Both the position numbers and the translations under genes were made by a program. A stretch of DNA of 36,357 bases from Pararcticibacter amylolyticus (lineage in GTDB: Bacteria; Bacteroidota; Bacteroidia; Sphingobacteriales; Sphingobacteriaceae): contig NZ_QEAS01000012.1 of NCBI RefSeq assembly GCF_003130405.1, positions 1 through 36,357 on the forward strand. Reading direction: 5' to 3'. Within the stretch, counting starts at the first letter, position 1, and every line of letters begins with the position of its first letter. Below the pieces are notes generated by a model. It was given only the letters and a program-made list of their open reading frames with translations. It was not told where the DNA came from and ran no database searches. Below are positions 10,264-36,347 of the stretch, in pieces.

Positions 10264-10295
10264 TTTTCTTCAATTGAGTATGCAACATTATAAAA

Positions 10296-12164: not shown

Positions 12165-12171
12165 TCAAAAA

Positions 12172-15363: not shown

Positions 15364-15669
15364 ATTCCTTTCGTTAATTTGTAAAGTCAGACCTCTCCCA
15401 GCACCTTTTTGAAGGTGGAATTCTTGAAGATAACCGTCCTTATGAGCGGTTGAAATGATTGATGCGGTGGTAGCTTTCTCTATGACATAGTTGATTTCTA
15501 TCTGGTTAAAAATTGGTTGGTGATTGTTTATTTTGATTTACACTTCAGTTTAACCGAGTAAGTTGTTAAAAAGCAATTCTTCCTTATAGAACTTAAAAGT
15601 TAATCGCAGGTTGTTATGTGTTTGTTAGTTTAAATCAGTTAGTTAGTCTATAAAAAGAACTTTATATAA

Positions 15670-15735
15670 CAAATATAACCAGATGAAAATGGCTTTTCCT
15701 ATATTATTTTTCCAATATTCTGTATAATATTAGCA
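15670..15735 (-). promoter_or_regulatory. Candidate promoter and operator of susC2
   Basis: The minus strand reads TATATTTG at 15670-15677, an exact match to the Bacteroidota -7 element and the only one I found in this gap. TGCTAATAT at 15727-15735 lies 50 nt upstream of it, the same 9-mer and spacing as at the lyase and symporter genes. Transcription would start near 15663, giving a leader of about 300 nt. No clear -33 element was found, which fits activator dependence. Confidence 0.5.
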
Positions 15736-16078
15736 TTCAAAAAAAGCCCACCAGTTTCGCCTGTCATATCGCTATCTTATCAAATCTCCATTTTTTTAAC
15801 AAAAATGAACACAGTTTATTAATTGGTTAAGATAGATAATATCAAATAATCAAAATAAAGATCGCTTTCTTACAACTTACAAGCCCGACATAGGACGTCT
15901 AATAAATAGGCATTACGAATATAACATGCTAAAGATTAAAAAGGTGTTAGGTACTAATCCTTTAAGATAGACGCGAACAAGATTGATTTTGGGTCAGCTG
16001 AAACTTTAAAGTGCAAAATTGCTTGAATATTCAACAAACTGATACAAAGCAAGTGATATAAAGACCAAATCATTCAAT

Positions 16079-16114
16079 AAAAAAGGACGTCTCATTATTT
16101 ATAAGACGTCCTTT
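16079..16114 (-). terminator. Rho-independent terminator after susD3
   Basis: A perfect 11-bp stem (AAAGGACGTCT/AGACGTCCTTT) with an 11-nt loop ends in a run of six T on the minus strand, about 30 nt past the susD3 stop. It closes the unit of isomerase, DUF3826, susC3 and susD3. Confidence 0.88.
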
Positions 16115-16144
16115 CAACAAGCTAGTACCTTGTATACTATTTTA

Positions 16145-18124: not shown

Positions 18125-18142
18125 TTCTTTTGCTGTTAAAAG

Positions 18143-21100
18143 TTACAATGTCAAATTGAGCCCGAATGAATAAGTTTTCAATGCAGGATAAGCATCCCAT
18201 GCAATAGACGGATCTTTATATCCAAAAGGATTATACAAATTGAACGGGTTAACACCACTTAAATAAAGACGGGCATTGCTTATCTTCATTTTGTCAGTGA
18301 TCTTTTTAGGGAGGCTGTAACCCATATTTATACTAGCAATCCTCATTCTGAAAGCATTTACCTCCCAAAATTTCGAAGATTTATCGTACATCTTATCCCA
18401 TTCAGGATTAGGCATGGAACCAGACGGATTCAGCTCAGGATCATAAACATCCCCCCAGATTTCAGGTAAGCTTGTAAATACCCTGCTTATGTCATTGTTC
18501 AGTTTCTTCCTCTCGCTCCTTTCAGACCATCCTCCAAAGCTACCAGCGATTACACAATCAAAACTAAATCCTTTATAACCAGCCTTTAAAGTAGTACCGA
18601 AACCATAATGGTTATTTGCTCTTTTCTTTAACTGAACTTGGTCGTTTTCATCAATAATACCGTCAGGAGCGGCAAATGTTCCATCCGCTTGTAATGGCCC
18701 CCGAACATCACGATAATATAACATCCCCTGTTTAAGATCGGCGACAGTACGGATCGTCTGCCCAAAAATAGACGTAGGATGATATGTATCATAGTAAGCC
18801 TGAATCTCCTCCTGGCTTCTGAACATACCTAAATAGTCGTATCCCCACTGTCCTACATCACTGGACTTTCCTGGTCTTTCTTTCCAAGGATATAATATAT
18901 CTACGGAATTGTAATCGCCCTTAACAACTTTATTATCTGCCCAGTTAAAACGTGCAGAAATACCGTAGTTAAAATCTTTACCAACTTTCGAATTCCAGCC
19001 AATTTCAATTTCGTAACCGAAAGAATTAGCTTTTCCGTAGTTCTCTGATGCTACAGAGCCACCGACTGTTACAGGTACACTACCAACCCTTTGAATTAAT
19101 AGATCGGATCCGTAATTATAATATCCTTCTATTGTAGTAGAAAGTCTTTCATTAAGGAACCGGGCATCAATACCTATGTTATTTTTAAACTCCTGTGTCC
19201 AAGATGCACCACGATTAGGAGTTACTCCCATTTTAATACTATTGGTACTATTATTATTACCTCCGAATACAGCACCTTTACCTTCTTCTAAAGTGTAACG
19301 TTGCTTCCATGCCCAGGCTTGGAATGTATCGCTTCCGAGCAAGCCTGTCGCATATCTTAATTTAAGGAAGTTTATGGCGTCAATCTTGAAGAAGTCTTCT
19401 TCCGAAATAACCCATCCTAATGATCCTGAATAGAACTTACCCCAATAATTCTCGGGGGCAAATTTAGTTGAAGCATCTGTTCTGAAGAGGAATTCAAATA
19501 AATACTTCTCTGCATAACGGTAGTTCACCCTCGCAATATAGCCAAGCGAACCAGATTCACTCCGAAGAGTTCTCCCTTCGTATGTTCCGAATGCGGTATT
19601 AAACTGTCCGTTTGTAGCCTGGATAGGATCATTCCTCCAAACATCTTCCTGCTTACTATCTGCGTCTCCTCTTTCTACTGTAAATAACCCGCTAATATTA
19701 TGTTTCCCAAATTGCCTGTCATAATTCAGAATAAAGTTCATTTGAGTATTACTCGTATTCAGATTCGAAAAGTATAGACGATTCCCATTACTTACAGAAA
19801 CGGTAGTGTACTCGGTAGCACCATCATAGATATGACGATGCTCTCCCAGCCCTGTAAACTGATAGACGTCATATTTTGTTCCGACTTGGGATCCTCGTGA
19901 GCCACCGTTATTACGGGAATAAGATGCCTTCGCATTCAATCCTTTCACAAAAGGAACCTTATATTCAGCAGACAGGTTTACAGTAAAAAATTTCCCATCC
20001 GTTTCAGCAAGATTCCCAAGTCTTTGAAGTTCATAGAAGTGATATCTGGATAAATCGTTATTTGTACCGGGTAATTTGACAGGTAAACCGTTTATATAAG
20101 TAGGAATATAACGTGGGGTTAGCAAAAGATTTTTATAATCATCTTCTACACCTTCTCCCGAAACCTTATTAAATGTCTTGACCTGGTTATCATTATTTCC
20201 GGATACTTGTAATGAAACTTTTAAATTTGACGCCACTTCTACATCTGTTCCAGCCCTAAAATTCCAACGGTCATAATCAAGGGTGCCTAGATTTCCATTT
20301 TGTTTGGTGTATCCAATACTTCCAAAATATGTTGCCTTTTCTGCCCCCCCACTTACGCTAAGATTATGACGAGTGTTATAGCTTGAAGACCAGGCACCAT
20401 CCAGCCAATCGTAATTAAGTGATTTAAAAGCATCCAGTTCATCTTGGCTGAAAACAAAATTACGGTAAGTGTCGCCAGAAACTGCAGCTGTCTTGTTCGA
20501 ACCATTGGGGCCGTTCATTACATTGAAATACTGAGCGAACTCATAAGCACTCATCATCTTTGTACGATAGGCCTCATCGCTGATAGCAACAGATCCATTA
20601 TATGAGATCCTTGGTTTCCCTGCTTTACCTTTCTTTGTGGTAACCAGAACAACACCGGCTGCACCTCTTACACCATAAACAGCTGCAGAAGCATCCTTAA
20701 GGACTGAAATACTCTCAATTTCAGCAGGATCCAAATTATTGAAAAGACTCGCATCAGGTTGATTCTGTCCATCCATCTGTATTACACCATCAATAACATA
20801 CAGCGGACTTTGCTGTGCGCCCACTATCGGATTTCTAATGGTCAGCGATGCTTTCGATCCTGGTCTAGAATTACCACCGCTAACACCAACCCCCTGAAGT
20901 CTTCCCGATAAAGCAACGCCAATGTTGGTAACCGGCAAATCAGCAACCTCTGCAGCCTTGATATCTACAACAGAACCAGTCAGGTGAGCTTTCTTCTGAA
21001 CACCATATCCCACTACTACAACTTCATCAAGAGCCTTCGAATCTTCTAACATCTTGATGTCTATTTTGGTCCTGCCATTTGCTACAACCTCCTGAGATTT

Positions 21101-21406
21101 GAACCCAAGATAAGTGACAACGAGCACCTCGTTTCCGGTAGGAAGGTTTAGTCTGAAAACTCCGTTTACGTCAGTGCTTGTACCTGAATTTGTACCTTTA
21201 ATTTTAATGGAGACACCTGGCAAAGGTTCACCTTTAGTATCTGTTACAGTACCTGTCACATTTACTCTCTTCATAGTCCCCAGCGTAGTGCGGTCGTTAG
21301 CCGCCCCATAGGAAGTTCCGGGGGCAAAGCCGGATAGCAACACCCCGCAACATACAAGCCTGAAGCCGATAGTTTTGAAGAATTGCGTTTGTAATTGTTT
21401 TTTCAT
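18143..21406 (-). CDS. SusC3, TonB-dependent outer-membrane transporter without STN domain
   Basis: A 1087-residue SusC-family importer: signal peptide (ending near GTSYGAA), CarboxypepD_reg-like domain at about 48-125 (TDTKGEPLPGVSIKIKG, STDVNGVFRLNLPTGNE), linker ALDEVVVVGYGVQKKAHLTG, plug (ALSGRLQGVGVSGGNSRPGS, PLYVIDGVIQMDG) and a barrel ending in YSFGLNLTL. It is paralogous to SusC2, most clearly over the first 150 residues. It lies downstream of the isomerase-like and DUF3826 genes, with 189 nt of hairpin-containing sequence in between, and upstream of SusD3. That ties this importer to the sugar handled by the isomerase. No STN domain, so control is more likely through the nearby AraC protein. 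Confidence 0.95.
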   Translation of the reverse strand: MKKQLQTQFFKTIGFRLVCCGVLLSGFAPGTSYGAANDRTTLGTMKRVNVTGTVTDTKGEPLPGVSIKIKGTNSGTSTDVNGVFRLNLPTGNEVLVVTYLGFKSQEVVANGRTKIDIKMLEDSKALDEVVVVGYGVQKKAHLTGSVVDIKAAEVADLPVTNIGVALSGRLQGVGVSGGNSRPGSKASLTIRNPIVGAQQSPLYVIDGVIQMDGQNQPDASLFNNLDPAEIESISVLKDASAAVYGVRGAAGVVLVTTKKGKAGKPRISYNGSVAISDEAYRTKMMSAYEFAQYFNVMNGPNGSNKTAAVSGDTYRNFVFSQDELDAFKSLNYDWLDGAWSSSYNTRHNLSVSGGAEKATYFGSIGYTKQNGNLGTLDYDRWNFRAGTDVEVASNLKVSLQVSGNNDNQVKTFNKVSGEGVEDDYKNLLLTPRYIPTYINGLPVKLPGTNNDLSRYHFYELQRLGNLAETDGKFFTVNLSAEYKVPFVKGLNAKASYSRNNGGSRGSQVGTKYDVYQFTGLGEHRHIYDGATEYTTVSVSNGNRLYFSNLNTSNTQMNFILNYDRQFGKHNISGLFTVERGDADSKQEDVWRNDPIQATNGQFNTAFGTYEGRTLRSESGSLGYIARVNYRYAEKYLFEFLFRTDASTKFAPENYWGKFYSGSLGWVISEEDFFKIDAINFLKLRYATGLLGSDTFQAWAWKQRYTLEEGKGAVFGGNNNSTNSIKMGVTPNRGASWTQEFKNNIGIDARFLNERLSTTIEGYYNYGSDLLIQRVGSVPVTVGGSVASENYGKANSFGYEIEIGWNSKVGKDFNYGISARFNWADNKVVKGDYNSVDILYPWKERPGKSSDVGQWGYDYLGMFRSQEEIQAYYDTYHPTSIFGQTIRTVADLKQGMLYYRDVRGPLQADGTFAAPDGIIDENDQVQLKKRANNHYGFGTTLKAGYKGFSFDCVIAGSFGGWSERSERKKLNNDISRVFTSLPEIWGDVYDPELNPSGSMPNPEWDKMYDKSSKFWEVNAFRMRIASINMGYSLPKKITDKMKISNARLYLSGVNPFNLYNPFGYKDPSIAWDAYPALKTYSFGLNLTL

Positions 21407-24221: not shown

Positions 24222-25097
24222 ATGAAGCCTTTATTTCATAAAGTCCCGGTTAAACTCCAGAATTCGTTCAGCGCAAGGCATGATGTGGCACCGAATTTCG
24301 GTACGGTGTGGCACTATCACCCTGAACTGGAAATTCAGTATGTAATTAAAGGCGAGGGAGTCCGTTTTATAGGTGATAATATCAATAACTTCTCATCCGG
24401 TGAACTGATCCTTCTCGGAGAAAACCTTCCGCATACATGGCGATGTAATGAAGCTTATTTTCAGTCTAATCCTGAACTCGAAGTGGAAGCCATCGTCGTT
24501 CAGTTCCTGCCCGACTGCCTGGGAAAAGACTTTCTTAATCTTCCGGAGGCGTACCTTATTCCCAAGCTGTTTGAAAAAGCAAAACAGGGAATGGTGATAC
24601 AAGGGAAAGCAAGAAAGAAGATGAGTGAGCTGCTCATTTCAGCAGTCAACGCAACCAACCTCGACCGCGTGATCATCCTGATATCCATTCTGAAGACCCT
24701 GGCGGAAACCACAGAATACACCACCATCACCACAAGTCAGCATACATTCACTTCTTCAACAGAATCCGATAATATCAGGCTCAATAAAGTATATAACTAT
24801 ACTCTTTCTAACTACAAGAAGGAAATCAGCCTGGAGGAGATCTCCTCCCTGAGCAACCTGAGTGTTACTTCGTTCTGCCGGTATTTCAAGCTGATGACCA
24901 AGAAAACATACTATGATTTTCTTATCGAGATCCGCATCAGTCACGCTTGCCGGGCACTTATTGAAGATAAATTACCTACAGAAGTTATTTGCTTTGAATG
25001 TGGTTTCAACAATGTTTCTAATTTCTACCGGCACTTTAAAAAGGTGACCGGGATGACACCACTGGATTATAAGAGAAAATATTTGAATAAACCGTAA
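24222..25097 (+). CDS. AraC-family transcriptional regulator with cupin sensor domain
   Basis: The only clear gene on the plus strand. The 291-residue product has an N-terminal cupin-type sugar-sensing domain at about 25-75 (FGTVWHYHPELEIQYVIKGE, ELILLGENLPHTWR) and a C-terminal double helix-turn-helix at about 195-289 (LEEISSLSNLSVTSFCRYFK, then ECGFNNVSNFYRHFKKVTGM with TPLDYK, the AraC signature). Regulators of this build (RhaR/RhaS-like) bind direct repeats near promoters and respond to a free sugar in the cytoplasm. It sits between the isomerase-led unit and the glycosidase/transport unit and is divergent from the first, so it is the likely activator of both. It is also the best candidate for binding the TGCTAATAT motifs; that link is inference. 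Confidence 0.93.
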   Translation: MKPLFHKVPVKLQNSFSARHDVAPNFGTVWHYHPELEIQYVIKGEGVRFIGDNINNFSSGELILLGENLPHTWRCNEAYFQSNPELEVEAIVVQFLPDCLGKDFLNLPEAYLIPKLFEKAKQGMVIQGKARKKMSELLISAVNATNLDRVIILISILKTLAETTEYTTITTSQHTFTSSTESDNIRLNKVYNYTLSNYKKEISLEEISSLSNLSVTSFCRYFKLMTKKTYYDFLIEIRISHACRALIEDKLPTEVICFECGFNNVSNFYRHFKKVTGMTPLDYKRKYLNKP

Positions 25098-25101
25098 TCA
25101 G

Positions 25102-25168
25102 TTATGGATTATGAGTTATGAATTATCAGTTTGCAACTTAGTTCACTCATAATTCATAACTCATAACT
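25102..25168. repeat. Inverted array of heptanucleotide repeats
   Basis: Between two convergent genes lies a perfect 18-bp inverted repeat (25109-25126 and 25149-25166, 22-nt loop). Each arm is itself a tandem heptamer array: TTATGNN units in the left arm (25102-25129) and CATAACT-type units in the right arm (25148-25168). The stem is nearly all A/T with no T run, so it is a weak terminator at best, although it could serve both strands. Confidence 0.75.
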
Positions 25169-25176
25169 AACTACGC

Positions 25177-26115
25177 TCAGCTGATTGCCAGCTTAAGATC
25201 CAGCTCCTGCTGGAGATTTGTATAGTTCTGGAACAGTGTTTCTATTTCGCGGGTAATGGAATTGGTGAATTCGCCCACTTTCCTGCGGGTGAATGTTGAA
25301 ATATTCAGTCCGCGTTTCTGAAGAAAATATTTAGATACAACCGGATATACATTGTGCATCACGTCCATGTTATCGATGAGGAATTGCTGAACCTTCTGAA
25401 CTTCGTCCTGGAGGGAAGCGTCATTATAGTGATCACATAACCAAACGATGAGCTCAGGGAAATAATTGCCCTGGATACAGGAGAGGCCTTTTGATCCTGC
25501 CTTAAGAGATTCAACAGCATGTACCATGTAGGCATCGTATAGTCCAAACTCAGGGTATGACTCTGTTGCAGCCAGTTTGGCTTTTATCTGGTCGATATCA
25601 AGGCAAGTGTCTTTGTGGTAGATCACCCGACCTGTATCCACAAAAGACTTCAGTTGCTCTGCAGATAAAAGTCTCTTGTAAGGTACCGGACATTCATAAA
25701 ATCCCAGGGGAATACCGGGAGTAAGGTGAAGCAATTCAAATACACGTTCGTTGAATACGGCATCACTTTCTTTTTCTCCGGCAAGCAGGCTGCTGATCAT
25801 GATTACCGCTTGTGTACCGGTATCGTGTACCCGCTTTACAAAGTCAGCCTGCTTTGATATCTCTCCGCCAAAGGTTCCTGTTGCTACAACCGGCACCTTC
25901 CCGTCTACTACTTTAATGACATGTTTTATAGCGTCCAGCCTTTCCTTGTCTGTCAGTTCAAACATCTCGCTCGACAGGCAATTGGCAAATAACCCGGAGG
26001 CTCCGGCTTCAAGGTATATTTCTGTAAGTTCTGTTAAAATGTTATAGTCAATTTCTCCATTGTCTTTAAACGGAGTGAGCATCACCGGAATAAATCCCTT
26101 CTTCTTATTTTCCAT
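25177..26115 (-). CDS. DapA/NanA-family aldolase (dihydrodipicolinate synthase superfamily)
   Basis: A 312-residue cytoplasmic TIM-barrel lyase of the class that forms a Schiff base with a 2-keto acid. Visible active-site elements are Lys168 in YHKDT (Schiff-base lysine), Tyr140 in GFYECP and the N-terminal TPF motif (14-16). The usual GTTGE carboxylate-binding loop is replaced by NCLSSE (45-50), so the substrate probably differs from those of DapA and NanA. Members of this superfamily cleave N-acetylneuraminate or 2-keto-3-deoxy sugar acids (KDG, deoxy-fuconate/rhamnonate). In this context a 2-keto-3-deoxy acid derived from uronic acid or deoxysugar is the most likely substrate. It is the last gene of the right-hand unit, about 140 nt after the symporter. 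Confidence 0.87.
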   Translation of the reverse strand: MENKKKGFIPVMLTPFKDNGEIDYNILTELTEIYLEAGASGLFANCLSSEMFELTDKERLDAIKHVIKVVDGKVPVVATGTFGGEISKQADFVKRVHDTGTQAVIMISSLLAGEKESDAVFNERVFELLHLTPGIPLGFYECPVPYKRLLSAEQLKSFVDTGRVIYHKDTCLDIDQIKAKLAATESYPEFGLYDAYMVHAVESLKAGSKGLSCIQGNYFPELIVWLCDHYNDASLQDEVQKVQQFLIDNMDVMHNVYPVVSKYFLQKRGLNISTFTRRKVGEFTNSITREIETLFQNYTNLQQELDLKLAIS

Positions 26116-26170
26116 CGTTATATATATGTCAGTTTATATTCTTTCCCTCTGGGTTCCGGTAATGTTGTAA

Positions 26171-26281
26171 GCTATCAGTGATCAGCAGTCGGCTATCAGT
26201 TGCAAGAGATCCATCTTAAATTTTTAACTCTCTACTTTAAACTTTCTACTCTTAACTTTCAACTCTCCACTTTAGACTCTG
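26171..26281. repeat. Degenerate heptanucleotide tandem repeats
   Basis: Two blocks of 7-nt units. 26171-26205 has GC-led units such as GCTATCA (twice) and GCAGTCG. 26226-26281 is eight units of the form NACTYTN (for example AACTCTC, AACTTTC). The second block extends into the 3' end of the symporter gene, so its last residues (ESKVES) are encoded by repeat units. Confidence 0.8.
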
Positions 26282-27839
26282 TTCCCGTCTCTCGTCTCCT
26301 GAACTTCGTTAACAGGATACCGGTAAGAAAAATCACCAGTGTTCCGATCACAATGATCATATTGATATGAAGCGGATTCCTGAGATAAGCATATTCATCA
26401 GGAAGGTTACCGGAAAGTGTCATCCAGATGATTACCAGGATACCGATGATAGTAGCTATTAAAGCCTCGTGATTACGTGTCTGCCTGCTGATCATACCCA
26501 GCAGGAACAAGCCCAGCATTCCGGCCGCAAATATTCCTGAAAGCTGCCACCAGACATCCAGCACGCTCTTTACTCCGATCATAGCGATCCCGGTTCCCAT
26601 CCCCAGCAGACCAAATACCACTGTTGCTATATGCAGCAGCTTCAGTGTCTGCTTTTCGTCAATATCGCTTTTAAAGTATCTTTTATAAATATCGACGGAG
26701 AATACCGTCGCGGATGCATTCATTCCTGAACTGATCGTACTCATAGCGGCCGAAAGGATCGCTGAAACGATTAGCCCTACCAGTCCTGCGGGGATCTTCG
26801 TCACCATAAAATGAGGCATCACTTTGTCGCCGTAATCAGCAGGCTGAAGGCTTGAGGCAAGCTGGGCTATCTGATCCTTACTTGCTGATAAAGGCAAGCG
26901 CTCTGCTGCCACCTGCAACCGGATCCCTTCTATCAATTCAGGGTGAACCTGGTAATAAGCAAAAAGGCATGTTCCAATGATGAAAAACAACAACGAAGCC
27001 GGCACATACATCCACACACAAAGCCAAACAGACTTGGACGCTTCCTCAGCCGACTTAGCAGTATGATAGCGCTGCACATAATTCTGGTCCATCCCAAAAT
27101 TATTGAGGTTAATAAAGAACCCGTACAAAAGGATCACCCAAAAAGAGGAAATGGTTAAATCAGGAGCGAAACTGCCGAGACTAAATTTATCGTTCTGCTG
27201 GCCAATCTCCATGATCTTTGAAACACCTCCGGGCATCCCCTGGATGATCAGGTACAGGATCAGTACGGCTCCCAGGGTTTTGACAATCCCCTGCACCACC
27301 TCTGTCCAGATTACCGCTTCTATCCCTCCCATTACTGTATAAATAATGATGCAGATCCCCATTACCAGCATGATGGACGACATAGAATACCCAGTTAAAG
27401 CCTGAAGGCTCAATGCGATACCAAAGAATACAGATCCCATTCGGGCTAACTGCGTCAGCAGGAAGCAAACCACTGCATACGTTCTGGCCCAGGGCCCAAA
27501 ACGGTGCTCAAAATGGGTGTAAGCCGATATCTCGCCCGTACTTCTGTAAAAGGGCACAAAGTACTTGGATGCTACCCATGCCGCCAAAGGCATGGAAAGA
27601 CTAAAAACAAACGAATTCCAGTTAGATCCAAACGCTTTACCGGGTACCCCCAGGAAGGTATTGCTGCTCAGGAAAGTCGCATAGATCGATATCCCGATAG
27701 CCCAACCCGGAATCAGTCCGGAAGCTTTTGTAAACTGCTCTGCATTCTTATTTTTCCTTGAAAAATAAACGCCAACGAGGATCATCCCCAGAAGATAAAT
27801 TGCTATAACAGCAAGATCGAAAATTGGAAGGCTCTTCAT
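26259..27839 (-). CDS. Sodium:solute symporter (SSS family)
   Basis: An inner-membrane sugar importer of 526 residues driven by sodium, with about 13 membrane segments (for example FDLAVIAIYLLGMILVGVYF at the start and INMIIVIGTLVIFLTGILL at the end). Family landmarks include GWAIGISIYATFLSSNTFLG and GLIVSAILSAAMSTISSGMN, the conserved sodium-site helix. The frame is open four codons further, to a TTG at 27851; the ATG at 27839 is preferred. Relatives carry sialic acid, glucose or other monosaccharides, so the product probably takes up the sugar released by GH95/GH2 in the periplasm. It has its own promoter and shared operator (27920-27985) and precedes the aldolase gene. Confidence 0.93.
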   Translation of the reverse strand: MKSLPIFDLAVIAIYLLGMILVGVYFSRKNKNAEQFTKASGLIPGWAIGISIYATFLSSNTFLGVPGKAFGSNWNSFVFSLSMPLAAWVASKYFVPFYRSTGEISAYTHFEHRFGPWARTYAVVCFLLTQLARMGSVFFGIALSLQALTGYSMSSIMLVMGICIIIYTVMGGIEAVIWTEVVQGIVKTLGAVLILYLIIQGMPGGVSKIMEIGQQNDKFSLGSFAPDLTISSFWVILLYGFFINLNNFGMDQNYVQRYHTAKSAEEASKSVWLCVWMYVPASLLFFIIGTCLFAYYQVHPELIEGIRLQVAAERLPLSASKDQIAQLASSLQPADYGDKVMPHFMVTKIPAGLVGLIVSAILSAAMSTISSGMNASATVFSVDIYKRYFKSDIDEKQTLKLLHIATVVFGLLGMGTGIAMIGVKSVLDVWWQLSGIFAAGMLGLFLLGMISRQTRNHEALIATIIGILVIIWMTLSGNLPDEYAYLRNPLHINMIIVIGTLVIFLTGILLTKFRRRETGTESKVES

Positions 27840-27919
27840 ATTATTTGTCAAATAAATCAGATTTATTTGATGCGTTCAAATTCGTTAGTTTTAACAGTTA
27901 TAGCAGCGATCATTTAATA

Positions 27920-27985
27920 CAAAACTACTTTTGGCGAACGCACCAATCATATATCATTTTTTCAAGCTATTATAGGATATTAGCA
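27920..27985 (-). promoter_or_regulatory. Candidate promoter and operator of the SSS symporter unit
   Basis: The minus strand carries TAGTTTTG at 27920-27927 (an exact TAnnTTTG match) and TGCTAATATCCTA at 27973-27985, with 50 nt between the end of the 9-mer and the start of the -7 element. The 13-mer is identical to the one before the lyase gene. The leader would be about 70 nt. This suggests that symporter and aldolase can be transcribed without the upstream glycosidases. Confidence 0.5.
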
Positions 27986-28113
27986 TGAAGCAGGAAGCTT
28001 TTAGCCATCAGCAGTCAGCCTTTCAGGAACCAGATGTCAGGATAAAGTTACGGCAGCTTACTATAATACTAACTGCCATAACTTACTACTTACAACTTAA
28101 TACTTATAACTTT
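27983..28113. repeat. Degenerate heptanucleotide tandem repeats
   Basis: 27983-28024 has six GC-led heptamers (GCATGAA, GCTTTTA, GCCATCA and so on). 28079-28113 has five units of the NACTTAN type (CTACTTA, CAACTTA). The last unit reaches into the stop codon of the GH2 gene (28112-28114). About 54 nt between the blocks shows no repeat. Confidence 0.75.
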
Positions 28114-31100
28114 ACTGCACATCGAGGCCGGAAATCCCCAATCCCTCCGCATTCACAGAGATGAGGCGAACCTTATAGGTACCAGCATTGATCATGGAGC
28201 CACTGGAAGTAGGATAATAGTTCCACTTTCCTGTTTTGCTGGGCGCCAGTTCAACCATTTCCTCTTTCATTAGTGTACCGTCAGCAGCAAGCAGCTGAAG
28301 TTTTGCACTGAGATTATGGGTGAATGTATTGGCATACTTGATGGTGAATGAATAGGTATCGGCAACGCCGACAGATATTGTCCACTCTAAGGTATCACCG
28401 GATGGCTTTTTGAATACCACCGCGTCTTTTTCATTAACAGTTGCCTTTTCAATTCCGGCAGTCAGTGCTGCCTGTGGTGCTTTATAGCCTTTGACCGGTT
28501 TAAGATCGTAGGCAGGCGCAAGCGTGGTGGCCGGCAAAACTGTAACTGTATACATCGGCGAAGCGGGGTTATTGGCTTCCAGTTTTACTGTCTGCCCTTT
28601 CTCTACCCTCTTCCTGTATACTTTAAATTTATTTCCCCTGTTATCTTCTATGACAGTCTTTGTATCATCATAGCCCTGCATCCAGGATAGCACGCGGGCC
28701 TTTTCATCCAATCCTACAAATACATCAGATTGCGCGTTGACAGTAAATTCCAGTCCCGACAGTTTTCCGGATGTTCTGATCCATTCAGCACCGTAAAGAT
28801 TTGAAGGCAGAGATGAAAATAAAACGGCATCATCATCATACAACTTATCCCCAGTGTTAAGCCAGGTCTGTACTGCGGCGACAGCCCCGGTACCGGCAGT
28901 TTTCAGGCTTCCGATTAACAACGGAGATGCCGCGGCTGGTTTTATGTCCCTTCTGATTGAAGCAACGGCAATCGCGGAAATTAAAGCTTGTCCTGAATTC
29001 ACTTTAGGGAAAGAGATGATCAGCTGACCGCCGGTTACCTTTACTTTCACCGATTTCTTCAGAGCTCCGTCATGTCCGGCTTCTTTCCAGATATCGAGGT
29101 TTTTGATAACGGTATTTCCGTTCACGGCAACATCGAACAGGCGCCAGCCGGAGCAATCCATCCCGCCTCCGGTACCAAGCCATGGTTCTGTGAAATAAAG
29201 TTCTACCATGTATTCACCGTCAGGAACCGGGAACTGATAGGATAATTTATCCCTGCCATACCGAAAAGTCTGAAATAAAGGCCAATCCTGGGAGCCATTG
29301 ATAGGATCATTCGTTTTTCTCTGGCTGGCAAAGAAAGAAGGCATTCCAGGATAATCGTCTGTCCATGATCTTGAGCCCCAGGTAGCGGCGTCAGTTCTGC
29401 GACGATCAGCATTCCACATGTTGCCGTTCTGATCGGTATAATCAGGACCACCGCAGTTTACACGGTACAGGTACTGATAACCTTTTTGAGGAACTGTCAG
29501 GGGCTTCGCCCCATCTAAAAATACATGGAAGCCGGGAGCCTTGGGCAGGTGATTTAAAACGATATAATCTTTAGCAACTTCTTTTCCGTTTACATAGCCT
29601 ACTGCATACAGCACATTATATTGTATATCGGCTTGATTCCATTGAAAATGTGTACCCACGCCATCTCGCTTCCTTCTCCCCAGCGAGCGATTCCGGACAT
29701 CATTAAATAACTCTACTTCATCACAGTTTGAATAGATCGTAATACTGTCTTTTTTTCCCGGCTTTGTCCACCTGTCAGGCCAGGTATGTGAGGCGATGTA
29801 CACCATAGGCTCTTTATCCTTTGGTGCATAATTTGCCCTGAACATATAATACACATCAAGAGGTTCTTCCCATGGAGTTAAAAGCCCCTTATAGTTAACA
29901 GGGCCGATCCTGTCAATTTCTCTCAAACCTTCTCCCCCCTGTACCCTTCCCGGGTTATCGTGCGAAGTGAAGAGCCAGAAATAATGCCCGCTGGTCTTAT
30001 CCTTCACCGATTCGGCCAGTTTCACCTTCATTTCCATTAATTGAGTCATCCGGTCTTCACTGAAAACACCATTTTGATTGAACGGACCTTCGGTATGCAG
30101 ATCTAATGTCCGCCAAGCTCCGTACTCTCCTATCAGGACCTGTCTTTGCACATCTTCTGCATATGTTGCAGGATTCCCTCCATAAGTGCCCGTCCAGTTT
30201 TGCGGAACATCCCAGTCTGTACCTGCCCCCCCGTTACAGGTAGTCACCTTCCTTTGTGAAGAGGCTGTCGGATCGAGTTGCCTGATCATCTCTGTACATT
30301 CCCTGGCAAAATCTTCAGGAAGAGTGCTTTCATTCTCAAGTCCCCACAAAACGATGGAAGGACTGTTCCTTCGTTCTTTCACCCAGTCGCGCAGCAGCTC
30401 TTTGAAGTTCTTTCTGAATTCAGGATTGTCAAACCAGACGTGCGCAGCCATCTGCGGCCACCACAAAATACCAAGCTTATCCCAATACTCCTGGTAACGG
30501 AGATTGTGAGGCTGATGAGCATCCCTGAACGAGTTAAAACCCGCTGCTTTCATCTGCATCACTCTCGAATGGATCTGCTCCGATGTAAAGGCGTGACTTT
30601 GCCCGATCAGATGTTCGTACTCGGCTATTCCGTTGATGAATACCGGTTTACCGTTCAGATAAAATCTTTTATCATTGGAATTCCTTCCGACCGGCCAGCT
30701 GATCCACCTGATACCGTAAGGAGTTGAAATGCGATCGGTGATCTTTCCGTTTTCGATCACTTCAGAAACCAGGCTATATAAGTAAGGATCCTCAAGCGAC
30801 CATAAATGAGGATTTATAATTTCAGGCGTATTCTGCTTAACAATCAATGTTTTACCAGCCGGTATATTTTGCTTTGACCGGAGTTCGGATACAAGCCTCC
30901 CGTCTTTCGCTACCAGGCGGCTGACAACGGTTACAGCTGCCGGTTTGCTGCTGTAATTCTTTACTTCCGTCTCTATATTCAGCCTGGCAGACCGCGCAGA
31001 AATAGTGGTATCATTCCAGATATGAACACCGAAGGGTTCAATCCTCACCGGATTGGTTACGATCAGGTGCACCGGCCTGAATATGCCCATTGGCTGCGCC

Positions 31101-31636
31101 CCTTCTGAAAAGCCGCGTTCTTCTGAACAGCCGCCGCATACCCAGGGAAGATCCCTGATCTCTGCCGGATGATCGGCCTTTACCGCGAGCAAGTTAGGAG
31201 AGCCATTTTTCTTAATAACATCCGTAACATCGAGGGTAAAAGAAGTTCGCCCACCAGCATGATAACCTACTTTCTTTCCGTTCAGCCACACGGTGGCATA
31301 AGAACCTACCCCTTCAAACCACAGAAAATATTTTTTTCCCTGCTGCACCTCGTTTACCCTGAAGGTTTTCCGGTACCAGGAGAAACCATGACGGTTTCCA
31401 TGCATCAGACGCCTGTAGCCTCCGTACTCATCCCAGTTGTGCGGGACGTCCACCTTCTTCCATTTTTTATCATCGTACCCGGTTTTTTCAAAGCCGGCGA
31501 AGGCATTTTTATTCTCATCATTGGCTATGGTATTCCAATCACTATTTAAGGAAATACTCTTTCTCATCGCAGTTTGTGCTGATACCAGCGATAACTGCAT
31601 ACTCACGTAAAGACAAACTAGAATAAAATGCTTCAT
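28112..31636 (-). CDS. Secreted GH2-family glycoside hydrolase with malectin-like domain
   Basis: A 1174-residue exported enzyme (signal peptide ending near VSAQ). Domain order: GH2 sugar-binding jelly roll at about 28-195 (HGFSWYRKTF, GVGSYATVWLNGKKVGYHAG), Ig-like domain at about 198-310, TIM-barrel at about 325-600 with acid/base Glu436 in LWGLENES and nucleophile Glu504 in IGEYGAW, a DUF4982-like Ig domain at about 625-695, a malectin-like domain at about 720-895 (YRVNCGGPDYTD), and a C-terminal carbohydrate-binding-like sandwich at about 1040-1174. GH2 enzymes remove beta-linked galactose, glucuronate, mannose and other sugars; the specificity here cannot be read. In a pectic locus a beta-galactosidase or beta-glucuronidase acting on side chains is likely. 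Confidence 0.92.
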   Translation of the reverse strand: MKHFILVCLYVSMQLSLVSAQTAMRKSISLNSDWNTIANDENKNAFAGFEKTGYDDKKWKKVDVPHNWDEYGGYRRLMHGNRHGFSWYRKTFRVNEVQQGKKYFLWFEGVGSYATVWLNGKKVGYHAGGRTSFTLDVTDVIKKNGSPNLLAVKADHPAEIRDLPWVCGGCSEERGFSEGAQPMGIFRPVHLIVTNPVRIEPFGVHIWNDTTISARSARLNIETEVKNYSSKPAAVTVVSRLVAKDGRLVSELRSKQNIPAGKTLIVKQNTPEIINPHLWSLEDPYLYSLVSEVIENGKITDRISTPYGIRWISWPVGRNSNDKRFYLNGKPVFINGIAEYEHLIGQSHAFTSEQIHSRVMQMKAAGFNSFRDAHQPHNLRYQEYWDKLGILWWPQMAAHVWFDNPEFRKNFKELLRDWVKERRNSPSIVLWGLENESTLPEDFARECTEMIRQLDPTASSQRKVTTCNGGAGTDWDVPQNWTGTYGGNPATYAEDVQRQVLIGEYGAWRTLDLHTEGPFNQNGVFSEDRMTQLMEMKVKLAESVKDKTSGHYFWLFTSHDNPGRVQGGEGLREIDRIGPVNYKGLLTPWEEPLDVYYMFRANYAPKDKEPMVYIASHTWPDRWTKPGKKDSITIYSNCDEVELFNDVRNRSLGRRKRDGVGTHFQWNQADIQYNVLYAVGYVNGKEVAKDYIVLNHLPKAPGFHVFLDGAKPLTVPQKGYQYLYRVNCGGPDYTDQNGNMWNADRRRTDAATWGSRSWTDDYPGMPSFFASQRKTNDPINGSQDWPLFQTFRYGRDKLSYQFPVPDGEYMVELYFTEPWLGTGGGMDCSGWRLFDVAVNGNTVIKNLDIWKEAGHDGALKKSVKVKVTGGQLIISFPKVNSGQALISAIAVASIRRDIKPAAASPLLIGSLKTAGTGAVAAVQTWLNTGDKLYDDDAVLFSSLPSNLYGAEWIRTSGKLSGLEFTVNAQSDVFVGLDEKARVLSWMQGYDDTKTVIEDNRGNKFKVYRKRVEKGQTVKLEANNPASPMYTVTVLPATTLAPAYDLKPVKGYKAPQAALTAGIEKATVNEKDAVVFKKPSGDTLEWTISVGVADTYSFTIKYANTFTHNLSAKLQLLAADGTLMKEEMVELAPSKTGKWNYYPTSSGSMINAGTYKVRLISVNAEGLGISGLDVQ

Positions 31637-31644
31637 AAAGAATA

Positions 31645-31679
31645 GCTATTGGCTTTTAGCGTTTGGATTAAAGACTAAA
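31645..31679. repeat. Short heptanucleotide repeat block
   Basis: Five 7-nt units beginning with G (GCTATTG, GCTTTTA, GCGTTTG, GATTAAA, GACTAAA) lie directly upstream of the GH2 start and downstream of the GH95 gene. The unit GCTTTTA recurs in the arrays at 27997, 34606 and 36268. Confidence 0.6.
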
Positions 31680-31719
31680 AGCAAGTAACCCATACCAGAA
31701 AGTGGCGTTCAACCGTAAT

Positions 31720-34566
31720 TTAAAATTGTATCTTTTTCAGTTCTCCGTCGAACTGGTACCTTTCTCCTTTTGCCGTTTTAATCTGGAGGATTTTCTGTCC
31801 GTAGCGGAGACTACAACTGCCCCCCTCCTTTGAAAGGATCTCTACCCGGTTTAACTTACCGGCATTCCAGGAAAAACTGAGTTCAAATCCACCGCGGGCG
31901 CATATCCCTTTAACATCTCCATCCGGAAATGAGGAAGGAAGTGCGGGAAGAAGGTCAATCAGTTCATTCTGACTTTGCAGAAGCAACTCGGCAATCCCCG
32001 CTGCCCCTCCGAAATTTCCATCGATCTGGAAAGGTGGATGGGCGTCGAACAAATTGACATAAGAACCAGCTCCACCATTTTCGGCAGGGCTTAACAACAT
32101 TTTAATCAGATTATAAGAATGGTCCCCCTCTCTGAACCTTGCCCATAGATTAATTTTCCAGCCAAGGCTCCAGCCTGTTGCAGCATCCCCGCGGTAAATA
32201 AGCGATTGACGGGCGGCTTTCATCAGATCAGCGGTATGTTCCCAGTTAATTTCATTTCCGGGATATACAGCCCAGAGATGCGAGACATGCCGGTGTTTAT
32301 TGGTGGTATCATCTTTATCTTCCAGCCATTCCTGCAGTTGTCCGTACTTACCAACCTGGTTAGGGGCAATCTGCTTATACTTCTGCTGAAGGGTGTCGGC
32401 AAGGGATTTATCCGTTTGGAGTACAGACGCAGCCTGAATACAATTTCTGAACAGATCGCGGATTATCTGATGATCCATCGCAGGACCCGCTACCAGACCT
32501 CCCTGCTCAGGGGAATTGGACGGTGTACTGATCAACCAGCCTGTACGCGGGTCTTTTACAAGGAAAGAATTAAAGAATAAAGCCGCATCTTTCATAACAG
32601 GATAAGCCCTGTTTTTCAGAAATTCTTTATCCTGGGTATACAGATAGTGCTCCCAGAGATGGTGGCACAGCCAGGCGGCCCCTGTCACCCAAATACCATG
32701 GGTTGAAGAGTTAATTGGCGCAGTGCCTCTCCATAAATCTGTATTATGATGCAATACCCATCCCGGGGCGTTGTAATGCATTTTTGCAGTCTGTCTTCCG
32801 GTAGACCTAAGCTCGTCGATCATATCGAACAGAGGCTGAGCCATGGGGGATAAATTAAGCATCTCCGCAGGCCAGTAGTTCATTTCCAGATTGATGTTCG
32901 TAGTATATTTGCTGCCCCATGGTGGGGTCAGCAAATCATTCCAGATACCCTGCAGATTAGCGGGCCGGGTACCGGGTCTTGAACTTGATATCAAAAGATA
33001 TCTTCCATATTGCACATACAGTGCGGCAAATGAAGGGTCCGATACCGAAGCAAATTGCTTCAGCCTTTCGTCGGTTGGTATATTGTCCCTGGTATCTTTA
33101 CCAAGGTTAATAGAAAATGTATTGAAGTACTTCTGGTACTCTTTAACATGCGCATTTCTTACGGCTCCGTAAGTTTTACCGGATACAGATGCTAACGCTT
33201 TCTTACACGCCAGGGAAGGATCGCCGGATACGTCCTTGTAGTTCTTATAGTTTGTACCGGCTGTCAGATATAGAGTAACAGCGTCTGCGCCGCTAATATT
33301 TATTTTATTCCCGGATGCGGATACCTTTCCTTTCGATGTCACAACCCTCAGATAACTTTCACCTTTCAATACGCCATTACGCACTTTCAAAGAAAGAGCG
33401 AGTGTCTGATTGTCTATTTTCCTGACAGATGAATACTTATGGGGACTGCCTAAACCCGCAGAGAAATGAAGGCTTCCCGGCTTACTGGCACTGATATGTA
33501 CCGCGATAACCTGATCCGGCTGGCTGACGAAATATTCACGGGTAAACGTGACGCCGTTAACTTTGTAGCTTGTGCGGGATACGGCGGTACGAAGATCAAG
33601 CTCCCTCCGGTAATCCGAAGTCTTATCATGTCCCGGGAAATTAAGAAAAAGATCACCGAAAGGCTGATAATCTGCCTGAAAACGCGGAACAGCTGGAGGT
33701 TCATCGTTCTGCACCAGGAATTTCCATGCTTTGCTTAAAGACAGCGCGGAAGATTCCTGTTCTCCTTCCGGATAAACCAGTAATTTCCGGGAAGTATCTT
33801 TATATCCGACAAAGCCTCCTTTGTCAAAATAGTTGAGCACCTGAACAGCAATATAATTCTTTCCGGGTTTAACATCAGATGCAGATAGTTTATATTGACG
33901 TCCCGCCCCGGCATCATCCATACTGCCGATCAGCTTGCCGTTGACATAGGTAAAGTCCTGATCCCGTATTTTCCCGAGATCCAGAACCAGGTTCTTCCCC
34001 TTCCAGCTTTCGGGCAATTCAAACGTCGTTCTGAACCATATAGCCCCATCAAGTCCCTGCCAGCCAGCAGCCTCCCAGCCTTCCGGGGTGGGCACTATCA
34101 TTTCCTTCCACTTGCTGTCATCGTAATTGACAGCAGAAGGATTTCCGGTAAGCCCTTTCAGTGCACGCATTTCTTTAAACCATACATCCTTATTTCCGGC
34201 ACCCGACAACACTCCCATAAACTTCTCTGCCGCCAGTGCTTCTGCCTCTTTCTGCTTTCCTTCGAAAAGCAACTGCCGGATCTCAGGCAGATATTTTGAA
34301 GCCCCTTCCCTGCTGTAGACTCTGGGCTCACCGGTCCATAACGTTTCTTCGTTAAATTGTATCCTTTCCTGCCCCGGACCTGCAAAGATCATAGCTCCTA
34401 AACGCCCGTTCCCTATAGGCAAAGCATCAGTCCACCTGGCAGCAGGATCCTTATACCAAAGCTTCAGATCCTGTCCTTTAACCGGGGCACACAAGGCCAA
34501 CACGCCCGTAGCCAGGACAAGCTTTTTAAACCAGGATATCAGATATGAGAAATAGGGTATTGTCAT
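31720..34566 (-). CDS. GH95 alpha-L-fucosidase/galactosidase with an inserted jelly-roll domain
   Basis: A 948-residue secreted enzyme that removes terminal alpha-1,2-linked L-fucose or the related L-galactose. The hydrophobic segment LVLATGVLALCAP acts as signal peptide. GH95 hallmarks are present: ALPIGNGRLGAMIF (48-61), NINLEMNYWPAE with Asn557 and Asn559, SPEQGG with Glu687 (general acid) and QIDGNFGG with Asp849. These correspond to the catalytic Asn/Asn/Glu/Asp set of characterised GH95 enzymes. Unlike the standard family layout, about 175 residues (roughly 120-297) interrupt the N-terminal domain between EAEALAAEKFMG and YQPFGDLFLNFPGH. They resemble the carbohydrate-binding jelly roll found in sialate O-acetylesterases (AIWFRTTFELPESWKGKNLV, DQDFTYVNGKLIGS). 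It sits between GH28 and GH2 and is probably cotranscribed with them. Confidence 0.93.
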   Translation of the reverse strand: MTIPYFSYLISWFKKLVLATGVLALCAPVKGQDLKLWYKDPAARWTDALPIGNGRLGAMIFAGPGQERIQFNEETLWTGEPRVYSREGASKYLPEIRQLLFEGKQKEAEALAAEKFMGVLSGAGNKDVWFKEMRALKGLTGNPSAVNYDDSKWKEMIVPTPEGWEAAGWQGLDGAIWFRTTFELPESWKGKNLVLDLGKIRDQDFTYVNGKLIGSMDDAGAGRQYKLSASDVKPGKNYIAVQVLNYFDKGGFVGYKDTSRKLLVYPEGEQESSALSLSKAWKFLVQNDEPPAVPRFQADYQPFGDLFLNFPGHDKTSDYRRELDLRTAVSRTSYKVNGVTFTREYFVSQPDQVIAVHISASKPGSLHFSAGLGSPHKYSSVRKIDNQTLALSLKVRNGVLKGESYLRVVTSKGKVSASGNKINISGADAVTLYLTAGTNYKNYKDVSGDPSLACKKALASVSGKTYGAVRNAHVKEYQKYFNTFSINLGKDTRDNIPTDERLKQFASVSDPSFAALYVQYGRYLLISSSRPGTRPANLQGIWNDLLTPPWGSKYTTNINLEMNYWPAEMLNLSPMAQPLFDMIDELRSTGRQTAKMHYNAPGWVLHHNTDLWRGTAPINSSTHGIWVTGAAWLCHHLWEHYLYTQDKEFLKNRAYPVMKDAALFFNSFLVKDPRTGWLISTPSNSPEQGGLVAGPAMDHQIIRDLFRNCIQAASVLQTDKSLADTLQQKYKQIAPNQVGKYGQLQEWLEDKDDTTNKHRHVSHLWAVYPGNEINWEHTADLMKAARQSLIYRGDAATGWSLGWKINLWARFREGDHSYNLIKMLLSPAENGGAGSYVNLFDAHPPFQIDGNFGGAAGIAELLLQSQNELIDLLPALPSSFPDGDVKGICARGGFELSFSWNAGKLNRVEILSKEGGSCSLRYGQKILQIKTAKGERYQFDGELKKIQF

Positions 34567-34577
34567 GGTGTTTTTTT

Positions 34578-34689
34578 GCTATCGGCAGTCGGCTATCGGC
34601 AATCAGCTTTTAAAGCTGTTAGCAATTGGCTTCGGGCCGTTAGCTTCCTTGTTTGAACTTTGAACTCTCAACTTTGAACTTACTACTTA
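34578..34689. repeat. Largest heptanucleotide repeat array
   Basis: 112 bp, almost all in 7-nt register. 34578-34612 holds five GC-led units (GCTATCG twice, GCAGTCG). After a 2-nt slip five more follow (34615-34649, GCTGTTA to GCTTCCT). 34655-34689 has five units of the GAACTTT type. The array fills the gap between GH28 and GH95 and stops 5 nt before the GH28 stop codon. No terminator or promoter was recognised within it. Confidence 0.85.
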
Positions 34690-34694
34690 CCGCA

Positions 34695-36347
34695 CTATTC
34701 AGCAATAATTTTCTCTTTCACTGCCGGGTCCTGCACAACGGGGGTTTTTACATTTTTGAAGTTATTATTTTTAAGGGTTATACCTTTAGACTGCTCACCA
34801 TTAACCTTTAAAAATGTATCCGTACCGGGCGCAGGGAACGAATTATAGAAGAAAACATCTTTGGTATTCGTCAATTCGGCTACAGGCACCCCAGGCAATG
34901 GTTTCAGGCTTTTCAGTCCGTTTGCTACCAATGTCGTCACGTTTTCCGTTTTCAGAACCGGGCCGGCTTTTGTATTGACATGAACATTATGGAACTCTAT
35001 GTTCGCTGCATTTTTAATATGAAAACCAGATTCGGCGTCCATATTAATATCATTAAAGGTGATATTTTCTACCGGCATTTCTTCGAGCCCGTTTATATAG
35101 CATGCCTGTTTCACTCCTGATGCCGTAATATTGCTCAGATGGATATTCCTGAATGCAGGCGTTCTCTCTGACACCGGTTCAGGCTGTGTTTTTGCATACT
35201 GCAGATCAAGTACGATAGCCTGTTCCTGAATGTTTTTCATGATGATATTATCCACCCTGATCTCTTCTACAACACCGCCTCTGCCTCTGGCAGACTTTAT
35301 CCTGATACCCCTGTCTGTGCCATCAAATACACAATTCGAAATGGTAATTTTCCGGACATCTCCGGACATTTCGCTTCCAATTACCACACCACCATGTCCT
35401 GACAACATCGTACAATTGGTGATGGTGTAATTTTCTGCCGGTGCAGCCATAGCTCTTCCAGGTTTATCTTTCCCTGATTTAATAGTGATACAGTCATCCC
35501 CTACACTTATATGACAGTTGGAAATATGCACGTACCTGCACGACTCAGGATTAATTCCATCGGTATTAGGAGAATGAGGGTTGTTGATCGTAACTCCTGT
35601 AACAGTAACATTTTCACAAAACTCCGGGTTTACGGTCCAGAACGGAGAATTCCGGATAGAGATTCCCTCGATTAACACATTCTTACAGAACATCGGCTGA
35701 ATAAACGGAGGGCGAAGAAAGCCCCGCTTCATCTGCTTAGGCTCATCCGGAAGTAAAATATCCTTATTCAGGTCATCGAACATGTACTGCCATTTCGACC
35801 TTGGCTGACCTTCTTTGTAGCCCTCTACAAAATCCCACCATTTCTTTCCGTGCCCGTCAATAAGCCCTCTTCCCTTAATGGTGATGTTCTCTGCTTTATA
35901 GGCATAGAATAAAGGAGAAAAACTCGTTACATCAACCCCTTCGTAGCGGCTCTTCACCATTGGCAAATAATGGTCAAAGTTATCGCTGAAATGTAATTCA
36001 GCACCCGCTTCAATGTAAATCGTAATATTGCTTTTCAGGTGTATGGGACCGGTCAGATACTTACCTGCCGGAAAATAGACAGTACCACCACCCGCTTTGA
36101 AAGCCGCATCTATAGCTTTCCTGATAGCATCTGTTGCCAGCTTACTGCTGTCATTCTTCGCTCCATACTTCAGAACATTATAGTGTTCCTGCGCAAACCC
36201 GGACAGGGAAGCAAACAAAAGTGCCAGACACAATGCAAGTTTGCAGGAAAACTGTTGTCTGCTGTCAGCTTTTAGCAATCTACTTTCGTTTAAGCGCCCC
36301 TCATCATAAGTGAGCTCTGTACTCGTATATATCTTCGTGTTGTTCAT
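34695..36347 (-). CDS. GH28 polygalacturonase-type glycoside hydrolase
   Basis: A 550-residue exported parallel beta-helix enzyme that hydrolyses galacturonan-type backbones. The GH28 signature motifs are in order: NTDGINPES (Asp263), VGDDCITIKSG (Asp284 and Asp285), SGHGG (His318) and RGIRIKS (Arg349, Lys351). The first coil reads YNVLKYGAKNDSSKLATDAI, typical of pectate-active helices. The signal peptide core KLALCLALLFASLSGFAQ lies unusually far in (36-53), behind an extension partly encoded by heptamer repeats (36254-36288). The true start might be the TTG at 36278. The gene begins near the right edge, so its promoter is outside the window. It leads the visible right-hand unit. Confidence 0.93.
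   Translation of the reverse strand: MNNTKIYTSTELTYDEGRLNESRLLKADSRQQFSCKLALCLALLFASLSGFAQEHYNVLKYGAKNDSSKLATDAIRKAIDAAFKAGGGTVYFPAGKYLTGPIHLKSNITIYIEAGAELHFSDNFDHYLPMVKSRYEGVDVTSFSPLFYAYKAENITIKGRGLIDGHGKKWWDFVEGYKEGQPRSKWQYMFDDLNKDILLPDEPKQMKRGFLRPPFIQPMFCKNVLIEGISIRNSPFWTVNPEFCENVTVTGVTINNPHSPNTDGINPESCRYVHISNCHISVGDDCITIKSGKDKPGRAMAAPAENYTITNCTMLSGHGGVVIGSEMSGDVRKITISNCVFDGTDRGIRIKSARGRGGVVEEIRVDNIIMKNIQEQAIVLDLQYAKTQPEPVSERTPAFRNIHLSNITASGVKQACYINGLEEMPVENITFNDINMDAESGFHIKNAANIEFHNVHVNTKAGPVLKTENVTTLVANGLKSLKPLPGVPVAELTNTKDVFFYNSFPAPGTDTFLKVNGEQSKGITLKNNNFKNVKTPVVQDPAVKEKIIAE
36254..36288. repeat. Heptanucleotide repeats inside the 5' end of the GH28 gene
   Basis: Five 7-nt units (GTTGTCT, GCTGTCA, GCTTTTA, GCAATCT, ACTTTCG) lie within the open frame just before the signal-peptide core. 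They encode about residues 20-31 of the called protein. They belong to the same family as the intergenic arrays to the left. Confidence 0.6.

Follow-up and report, generated by a model that had tools for sequence, protein, structure and literature searches.

Degenerate heptanucleotide arrays between genes of Pararcticibacter amylolyticus are a local instance of a repeat class common in Bacteroidota

Short tandemly repeated heptamers (STRR) are present in cyanobacteria, and the arrays reported here, for which the original prediction proposed a resemblance in style, do appear similar to them. According to PMC4692102, Mrazek, Guo and Shah reported in 2007 a general excess of heptamer tandem repeats in bacteria, with the DNA segment held by the polymerase suggested as the cause of the number seven. 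As these surveys are described, both that work and Huang and Mrazek (2014, PMC4060949) dealt with plain tandem repeats, and strongly degenerate arrays would probably have been under-counted in them.

The GGGNATC arrays of Xanthomonas and Nostoc, as set out by Rehm et al. (2015, PMC4692102), share many properties with those of Bacteroidota: both consist of intergenic tandem seven-nucleotide units, both are scarce between divergent ORFs, lie near stop codons and occur as inverted pairs, and in both the location is kept while length and sequence vary among relatives. On the stop side the coding strand is G-rich in the GGGNATC arrays and purine-rich in those of Bacteroidota. The two differ in that GGGNATC is described as one G-tract unit able to form quadruplexes, whereas the Bacteroidota arrays comprise several strongly degenerate families in another phylum. 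Furthermore, near starts the G-rich strand of the GGGNATC arrays is reported to be mainly the non-coding one, whereas the Bacteroidota arrays there tend, if to either side, to be purine-rich on the coding strand (35 purine-rich to 19 pyrimidine-rich, n=54, with start calls that are rough). Since AGTT-type units, which have no G-tracts, follow the same placement, quadruplex formation is unlikely to be the sole cause of the position behind stops.

TAACTGA arrays are known from Beggiatoaceae, Cyanobacteria and five Bacteroidetes (MacGregor 2015, PMC4679880). They share the heptamer unit and the intergenic position, and according to that account some Bacteroidetes mix in other heptamers and close relatives lack the array in the equivalent gap; unlike the arrays studied here, they are described as one fixed unit, which in the Guaymas Beggiatoaceae genome is found mostly directly before starts. 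In the P6b heptanucleotides of the Nostoc trnL intron, two degenerate classes are reported to secure the pairing of a stem, and a swap of class keeps a similar fold (PMC4476775); these repeats sit inside a group I intron, whereas the Bacteroidota arrays lie between protein genes. Among the open-access matches listed, judged by titles and the starts of abstracts, no description of degenerate heptamer arrays in Bacteroidota was found besides that of MacGregor. The earlier reports (GGGNATC, TAACTGA, cyanobacterial heptamers) have stood as separate oddities. The present arrays represent a widespread variant of a type of repeat described in a few other bacteria, not a new kind of system; here the degenerate, multi-family form is measured across a phylum with controls for period. 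In many Bacteroidota the sequence of a gap is a changeable repeat, which calls for caution when gene ends, terminators and horizontal transfer are considered.

The stretch of DNA that was analysed (the window, 36,357 nucleotides) is bases 1-36357 of contig 12 from the 6.31 Mb draft genome of P. amylolyticus (G000). It carries SusC/SusD pairs and carbohydrate-active genes, as judged by Pfam matches; the nearest named relatives of its GH95 protein are from Bacteroidota, and no known RNA families were found in it at gathering scores. Genes were called as longest ORFs and start positions are therefore rough. Six ORFs at 8542-21406 have a GC3 of 0.34-0.38, compared with 0.45-0.49 at 390-7957 and 0.45-0.53 at 24222-36347, which is possibly a sign of a different origin, independent of the arrays.

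Self-identity at lag 7 was measured in the six intervals for which arrays of period 7 had been predicted (25102-25168, 26171-26281, 27983-28113, 31645-31679, 34578-34689 and 36254-36288). In that order the values were 0.65, 0.54, 0.44, 0.64, 0.55 and 0.57, compared with means of 0.26-0.30 in dinucleotide shuffles of the same intervals; none of 2000 shuffles attained the observed value in the first five intervals, and 1 of 2000 did so in 36254-36288. Lag 7 was the highest of lags 4-12 in all five right-hand gaps, and the nine left-hand gaps of at least 30 nt gave 0.23-0.32 with no standout. Segments of 28 nt with at least 20 lag-7 matches were found at 17 positions, all of them beyond 24 kb, against a mean of 0.01 positions in 100 shuffles of the window. 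It is clear that the predicted arrays exist, exceed shuffled sequence and are absent from the first 24 kb. The further prediction that they fill or border gaps holds for the five right-hand gaps; the interval 36254-36288 instead falls within the GH28 ORF (34695-36347), at its 5' end. The weakest of the five is gap 31637-31719, whose lag-7 score of 9.5 is below the threshold of 12 used for array gaps. TRF also found arrays of period 7, 14 and 21, several of which match better at 14 or 21. The features are collected in Table 1.

Table 1. Heptad arrays, blocks and stem arms in the window
Feature	Position	Strand	Evidence
Heptad array filling convergent gap; AGTTATG then CATAACT units	25088-25174	.	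lag-7 score 23.0
5' arm of heptad stem	25109-25126	+	fold of 25085-25190
3' arm of heptad stem	25149-25166	+	fold of 25085-25190
GC-led block, gap shared with 26213-26280 array	26171-26201	-	direct reading; lag-7 self-identity 0.54 over 26171-26281
ACT-led array (AGTTNNN on coding strand)	26213-26280	-	lag-7 score 19.2; TRF periods 7/14/21
GC-led block, gap shared with 28081-28112 array	27983-28026	-	direct reading; block order
ACT-led array immediately downstream of GH2 stop	28081-28112	-	lag-7 score 15.5; TRF
Weaker array, GH95/GH2 gap	31635-31679	-	lag-7 score 9.5 (<12); 0/2000 shuffles for 31645-31679
GC-led block (GCCGATA type, coding strand) ahead of GH95 start	34578-34608	-	TRF; lag-7 self-identity 0.55 over 34578-34689
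ACT-led array (AGTTCAA/AGTTGAG, coding strand) immediately downstream of GH28 stop	34652-34690	-	lag-7 score 18.7
Short GC-led array in 5' end of GH28 ORF, codons 20-32	36254-36288	-	lag-7 self-identity 0.57, 1/2000 shuffles; translation

The array in the convergent gap separates the gene of an AraC-type regulator (24222-25097, + strand) from a DHDPS-family gene (25177-26115, - strand). Some arrays run into neighbouring ORF ends: 10 bases are overlapped by 25088-25174 and 1 by 28081-28112, and 26213-26280 overlaps the SSF transporter ORF over its final 22 bases and extends downstream. In the GH28 ORF the GC-led heptads are translated in frame (SRLLKADSRQQ) and are followed by a signal-peptide-like stretch; the N-terminal heptads are longer in the orthologue of the relative G396 (SRLLIADSRKPASQLLMANSQQ) and missing from that of the relative G397. 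Unless the true start of translation lies further in, this may be a case in which coding sequence was gained by capture of a repeat array. GGGNATC pairs with up to two mismatches numbered 4 in the window, with 2.2 expected; none is exact, and one overlaps the GC-led block at 34591. No exact TAACTGA pair is present in the window, and the single match with two mismatches, at 25157, compares with 0.4 expected.

The window arrays are a local instance of a class common in Bacteroidota. In 827 kb of G000 (345 readable gaps, score at least 12) period 7 was seen in 9 gaps, period 14 in 8 and period 11 in 4, the remaining tested periods within 4-16 giving 0-2 gaps each. In other Bacteroidota (40 stretches from 38 genomes, with 364 gaps in 687 kb) the count was 26 gaps for period 7, 19 for 14 and 15 for 21, followed by 10 for period 8, 9 for 20 and 8 for 16, with 2-6 for the other periods between 4 and 13; gaps with period 7, 14 or 21 exceed those of every other period from 4 to 24, and the density of arrays in these stretches is biased upward because all but one of the genomes were selected as matches to four consecutive AGTTNNN units (AGTTNNN x4). 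In G396, sampled in 37 stretches of which three cover the homologous cluster, period 7 was seen in 45 gaps and each of the other periods between 5 and 13 in 0-6, at a stricter score of at least 14. Gaps with more than 5 N were excluded from these period counts, from the extra stretches of G396 (n=14) and from the pooled placement set described below. Period 11 was slightly raised in G396 as well as in G000 (6 gaps at score 14, and the above 4 of 345 gaps at score 12), and in the genome G316 period 8 was also raised (14 gaps, compared with 25 at period 7).

Matches to the AGTTNNN x4 pattern were obtained in 168 of 395 Bacteroidota genomes (79 of 171 genera), among them that of the window. The reversed pattern proved not to be a neutral control, because it also picks up heptamers of other families, and patterns of period 6 and 8 were taken as controls instead: in a fixed subset of 99 genomes, which includes G000, the period-7 pattern matched 38, that of period 8 matched 8 and that of period 6 matched 3.

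The cluster of AraC regulator, DHDPS, SSF, GH2, GH95 and GH28 genes is syntenic in G000, G396 and G397, three members of one genus, with 72-91% protein identity. The gap ahead of GH95 holds 128, 75 and 405 nt of heptads in G000, G396 and G397, respectively, of partly different families; in nine other relatives, where the upstream gene may be a different one, it measures -11 to 43 nt and is array-free. The DHDPS/SSF gap is 143 nt long in G000 compared with 55 and 53 nt in G396 and G397, with scores of 19.2, 5.1 and 9.4, so that G000 alone is above threshold. In the convergent AraC/DHDPS gap G000 and G396 agree in 47 of 90 alignment columns, and the divergent gap upstream of the AraC gene has no array in any of the three. 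Arrays differ between these relatives both by presence and absence and by change of family.

A wider comparison of G000 with G396 used 38 gap pairs, defined by neighbouring best BLAST matches of at least 60% identity. Among the 30 pairs readable in both, arrays were present in 4 (G000), 7 (G396) and 2 (both) at score 12, and in 5, 8 and 4, respectively, at score 10.5. The other 8 pairs have N runs in or beside the G000 gap, and since the G396 partner has an array in all 8, the arrays of G000 are probably under-counted. Runs of N number 77 in the 827 kb of G000 (stretches L094-L133 and the window contig), 44 of them within gaps, and they may mark repeats masked or lost during assembly.

The original prediction took the uneven distribution to divide the window into two parts with different histories. 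The arrays do not support this: the right-hand cluster is syntenic and 72-91% identical in two array-bearing congeners, and arrays are found elsewhere in G000 and across the phylum. The idea of a foreign right-hand cluster marked by its arrays was rejected on the same synteny. Nor is the lack of arrays in nine left-hand gaps unusual, because even array-rich G396 has them in just 46 of 373 gaps. For G000 the right-hand cluster is array-dense: 4 of its 5 gaps have an array, compared with 9 of 336 readable gaps (hypergeometric 1.2e-6). This comparison was made post hoc, and many other G000 gaps were unreadable, holding N runs.

Placement was assessed in a set of gaps pooled from five sources: G396, G316, the remaining sampled stretches, 80 GH95 loci of mixed phyla (the best 80 of 571, 21 of the 80 from other phyla) and G000. 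Arrays occupy 86 of the 1048 co-directional gaps, 25 of the 232 convergent ones and 10 of the 295 divergent ones, the last class being array-poor compared with the rest (p 0.0015 pooled; p 0.022 in an earlier subset). Within co-directional gaps, 51 of the 86 arrays are no more than 15 nt from the stop, where random placement would give 30.4; near starts no clear excess was seen (32 of 86 no more than 15 nt away, 30.4 expected, with rough start calls). When arrays overlapping an ORF by more than 15 nt are left out, 44 are near the stop and 27 near the start. Thirty loci picked by the AGTT pattern were excluded from all counts; in these, arrays are found at both starts and ends of genes and in either orientation.

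Of 92 arrays no more than 50 nt from a stop, 71 have a purine-rich and 17 a pyrimidine-rich coding strand. The first 40 nt behind the stop were compared between gaps with and without arrays, any gap with N being excluded from this strand-composition comparison and from those of folds and helix arms (in the G000/G396 pairs N was only marked). The ratio of purine-rich to pyrimidine-rich was 63:21 with arrays and 383:394 without in co-directional gaps (p 6e-6), and 34:10 and 212:147, respectively, in convergent gaps (p 0.02). Since the array-free convergent gaps also lean to purine, the bias is partly inherent to gaps of this kind. At the start side of co-directional gaps the corresponding ratios were 55:28 with arrays and 405:379 without.

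The convergent gap of the window folds strongly. The RNA of 25085-25190 is predicted at -34.3 kcal/mol (z -7.0, with 0 of 200 shuffles equally stable), and both arms of the longest helix in the gap (25098-25176) lie within the heptad array. The AraC/DHDPS convergent gap alone gives -25.7 kcal/mol in G000, -51.6 in G397 and -34.7 in G396; the heptad stems are built from AGTTATG-type units in G000 and G397 and from GTTCTGT/GTTGTGT units in G396. The folding model suggests that the gap may act as a bidirectional terminator; a stem followed by a T-run was absent from 25098-25176 in a simple scan covering loops of 3-8 only. The other five stretches of the window gave fold z of +1.0, -1.85, -0.34, -0.36 and +0.33, none of which clearly beats shuffles; for the best, z -1.85, 11 of 200 shuffles were as stable.

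In G396, a fold z of -3 or lower was found in 8 of 10 convergent gaps with arrays and 22 of 31 without, in 5 of 31 co-directional gaps with arrays compared with 31 of 175 without, and in 0 of 3 and 1 of 50 divergent gaps, respectively. Since strong folding is seen in convergent gaps whether or not they hold an array, it appears that these gaps call for a hairpin and that arrays sometimes supply one. The longest helix was located in 22 convergent array gaps (40-350 nt): the array contains both of its arms in 8 gaps, a single arm in 7 and no arm in the other 7. Of the 8 helices with both arms in the array, 5 are at least 12 bp long, and in G396 the array contains both arms in 6 of 10 gaps. Arrays thus often adjoin the hairpin rather than form it. 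Hairpins as a general rule were therefore rejected, co-directional array gaps folding no more than others. A purine-first arm was likewise rejected as an array-specific rule, since array-free convergent gaps also show it (65:26).

On balance, the arrays are probably old minisatellites of degenerate heptanucleotides that are tolerated in intercistronic gaps and at 3' ends, and some of them have probably come to serve as bidirectional terminators. They would lengthen and shorten as one or several units slip or are exchanged unequally, and because the length would change by such steps the pitch would stay locked while the bases drift; this is the simplest account. Arrays would be tolerated behind stops and purged from promoters, and selection may act against orientations that give the mRNA a pyrimidine-rich array. 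Rho could bind pyrimidine-rich, C-containing RNA, and the purine bias in operons may stem from selection against RNA open to it in this way. In some convergent gaps, such as that of 25088-25174, an inverted pair of arrays would then act as a bidirectional terminator. Besides the folding results above, the following speaks against this explanation: transversions between units are no rarer than transitions (539 and 431, respectively), unlike plain point-mutation drift, and drift does not account for a pitch of seven.

Alternatively, the arrays could be purely neutral minisatellites without a role, their placement and orientation mirroring only what selection tolerates. The turnover, the replacement of unit families and the presence or absence among congeners are all consistent with this, as are the facts that most array gaps fold no better than others and that in 14 of the 22 convergent array gaps the array fails to give both arms of the longest helix. 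The heptad hairpin, however, is kept in one convergent gap of three species even though the unit family differs in one of them, and we consider a wholly neutral origin rather unlikely.

On the purine-rich strand the units include AGTTNNN, GACANNN, AGTATCA, GGTTGYA and AGCTNNN, among others; several families are present per genome and they are frequently mixed inside a single array. GC-led blocks had been predicted to stand often beside ACT-led blocks in the same order; in all 11 cases scored, which come from 9 distinct gaps, the GC-led block precedes the ACT-led one on the ACT strand (two gaps were scored on both strands, two of the nine are from the window, and the motif match extended beyond arrays). 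In 49 clean arrays, self-identity was 0.684 at lag 7, 0.678 at lag 14 and 0.589 at lag 42, with arrays more than 90% identical removed and with detection through lag 7 favouring that lag; units five or six steps apart are almost as similar as adjacent ones. This agrees with the proposal that the register is kept while units vary, and that the arrays did not arise by recent slippage of a single unit. The GH95 loci taken by themselves show a steep drop in self-identity, from 0.691 to 0.320.

Such a flat lag profile would also be expected if the arrays were bound serially in the 3' UTR, as DNA or RNA, by a protein with a pitch of seven nucleotides, the unit then being a core of 4-5 nt and a spacer of 2-3 nt. 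S1, Csp or Csr proteins were proposed by MacGregor for TAACTGA arrays (PMC4679880), and RRM proteins were considered here as candidates. The orientation bias on the coding strand fits this reading, as does the observation that 14 of 85 arrays vary unevenly (p<0.05) among the phases of the heptad; the phase test is, however, confounded by indels, by the shared ancestry of units and by inverted arms, and it is not treated as proof. Further, one genome contains several unit families, and RRM genes show no clear association with arrays (22 of 30 array-rich compared with 18 of 30 array-free genomes, p 0.41), on which ground they were rejected as partners. Serial binding of this kind is therefore doubtful.

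REP sequences are intergenic and repetitive, and some form hairpins; each is a single palindrome, and the class is linked to a Y1 enzyme. The arrays resemble them in the first three respects, and Y1_Tnp (PF01797) is present in 28 of 30 array-rich compared with 13 of 30 array-free genomes, all hand-picked (p 5e-5), with no such skew for the control DDE_Tnp_1 (14 of 30 and 15 of 30), but that the arrays are products of a mobile-element enzyme, as REP sequences are of Y1 (RAYT) transposases, is highly improbable: the tie to Y1 was not confirmed in a family-matched set of 58 genomes (27 of 33 compared with 18 of 25, p 0.53; 17 of 33 compared with 6 of 25 for matches at E<1e-20, p 0.057), the array-bearing genomes G029, G277, G250 and G336 have no match, and heptads flank 0 of 3 Y1-like genes in the DNA examined.

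We regard it as an unlikely idea that across Bacteroidota it is the pitch and not the sequence that is conserved, and that a cellular process or binding partner with a seven-nucleotide step builds or maintains the arrays, perhaps at the 3' ends of transcription units, so that families change while pitch and coding-strand orientation persist. The AGTTNNN x4 pattern also extends to other phyla (Planctomycetota, Verrucomicrobiota and others), where it matched 12 of 21 genomes, a non-random set drawn through GH95 homologues. In one genome (G456, a Phycisphaerae MAG represented by locus L073), AGTTCGT/AGTTCTT heptads are abundant, with 62 forward and 50 reverse matches.
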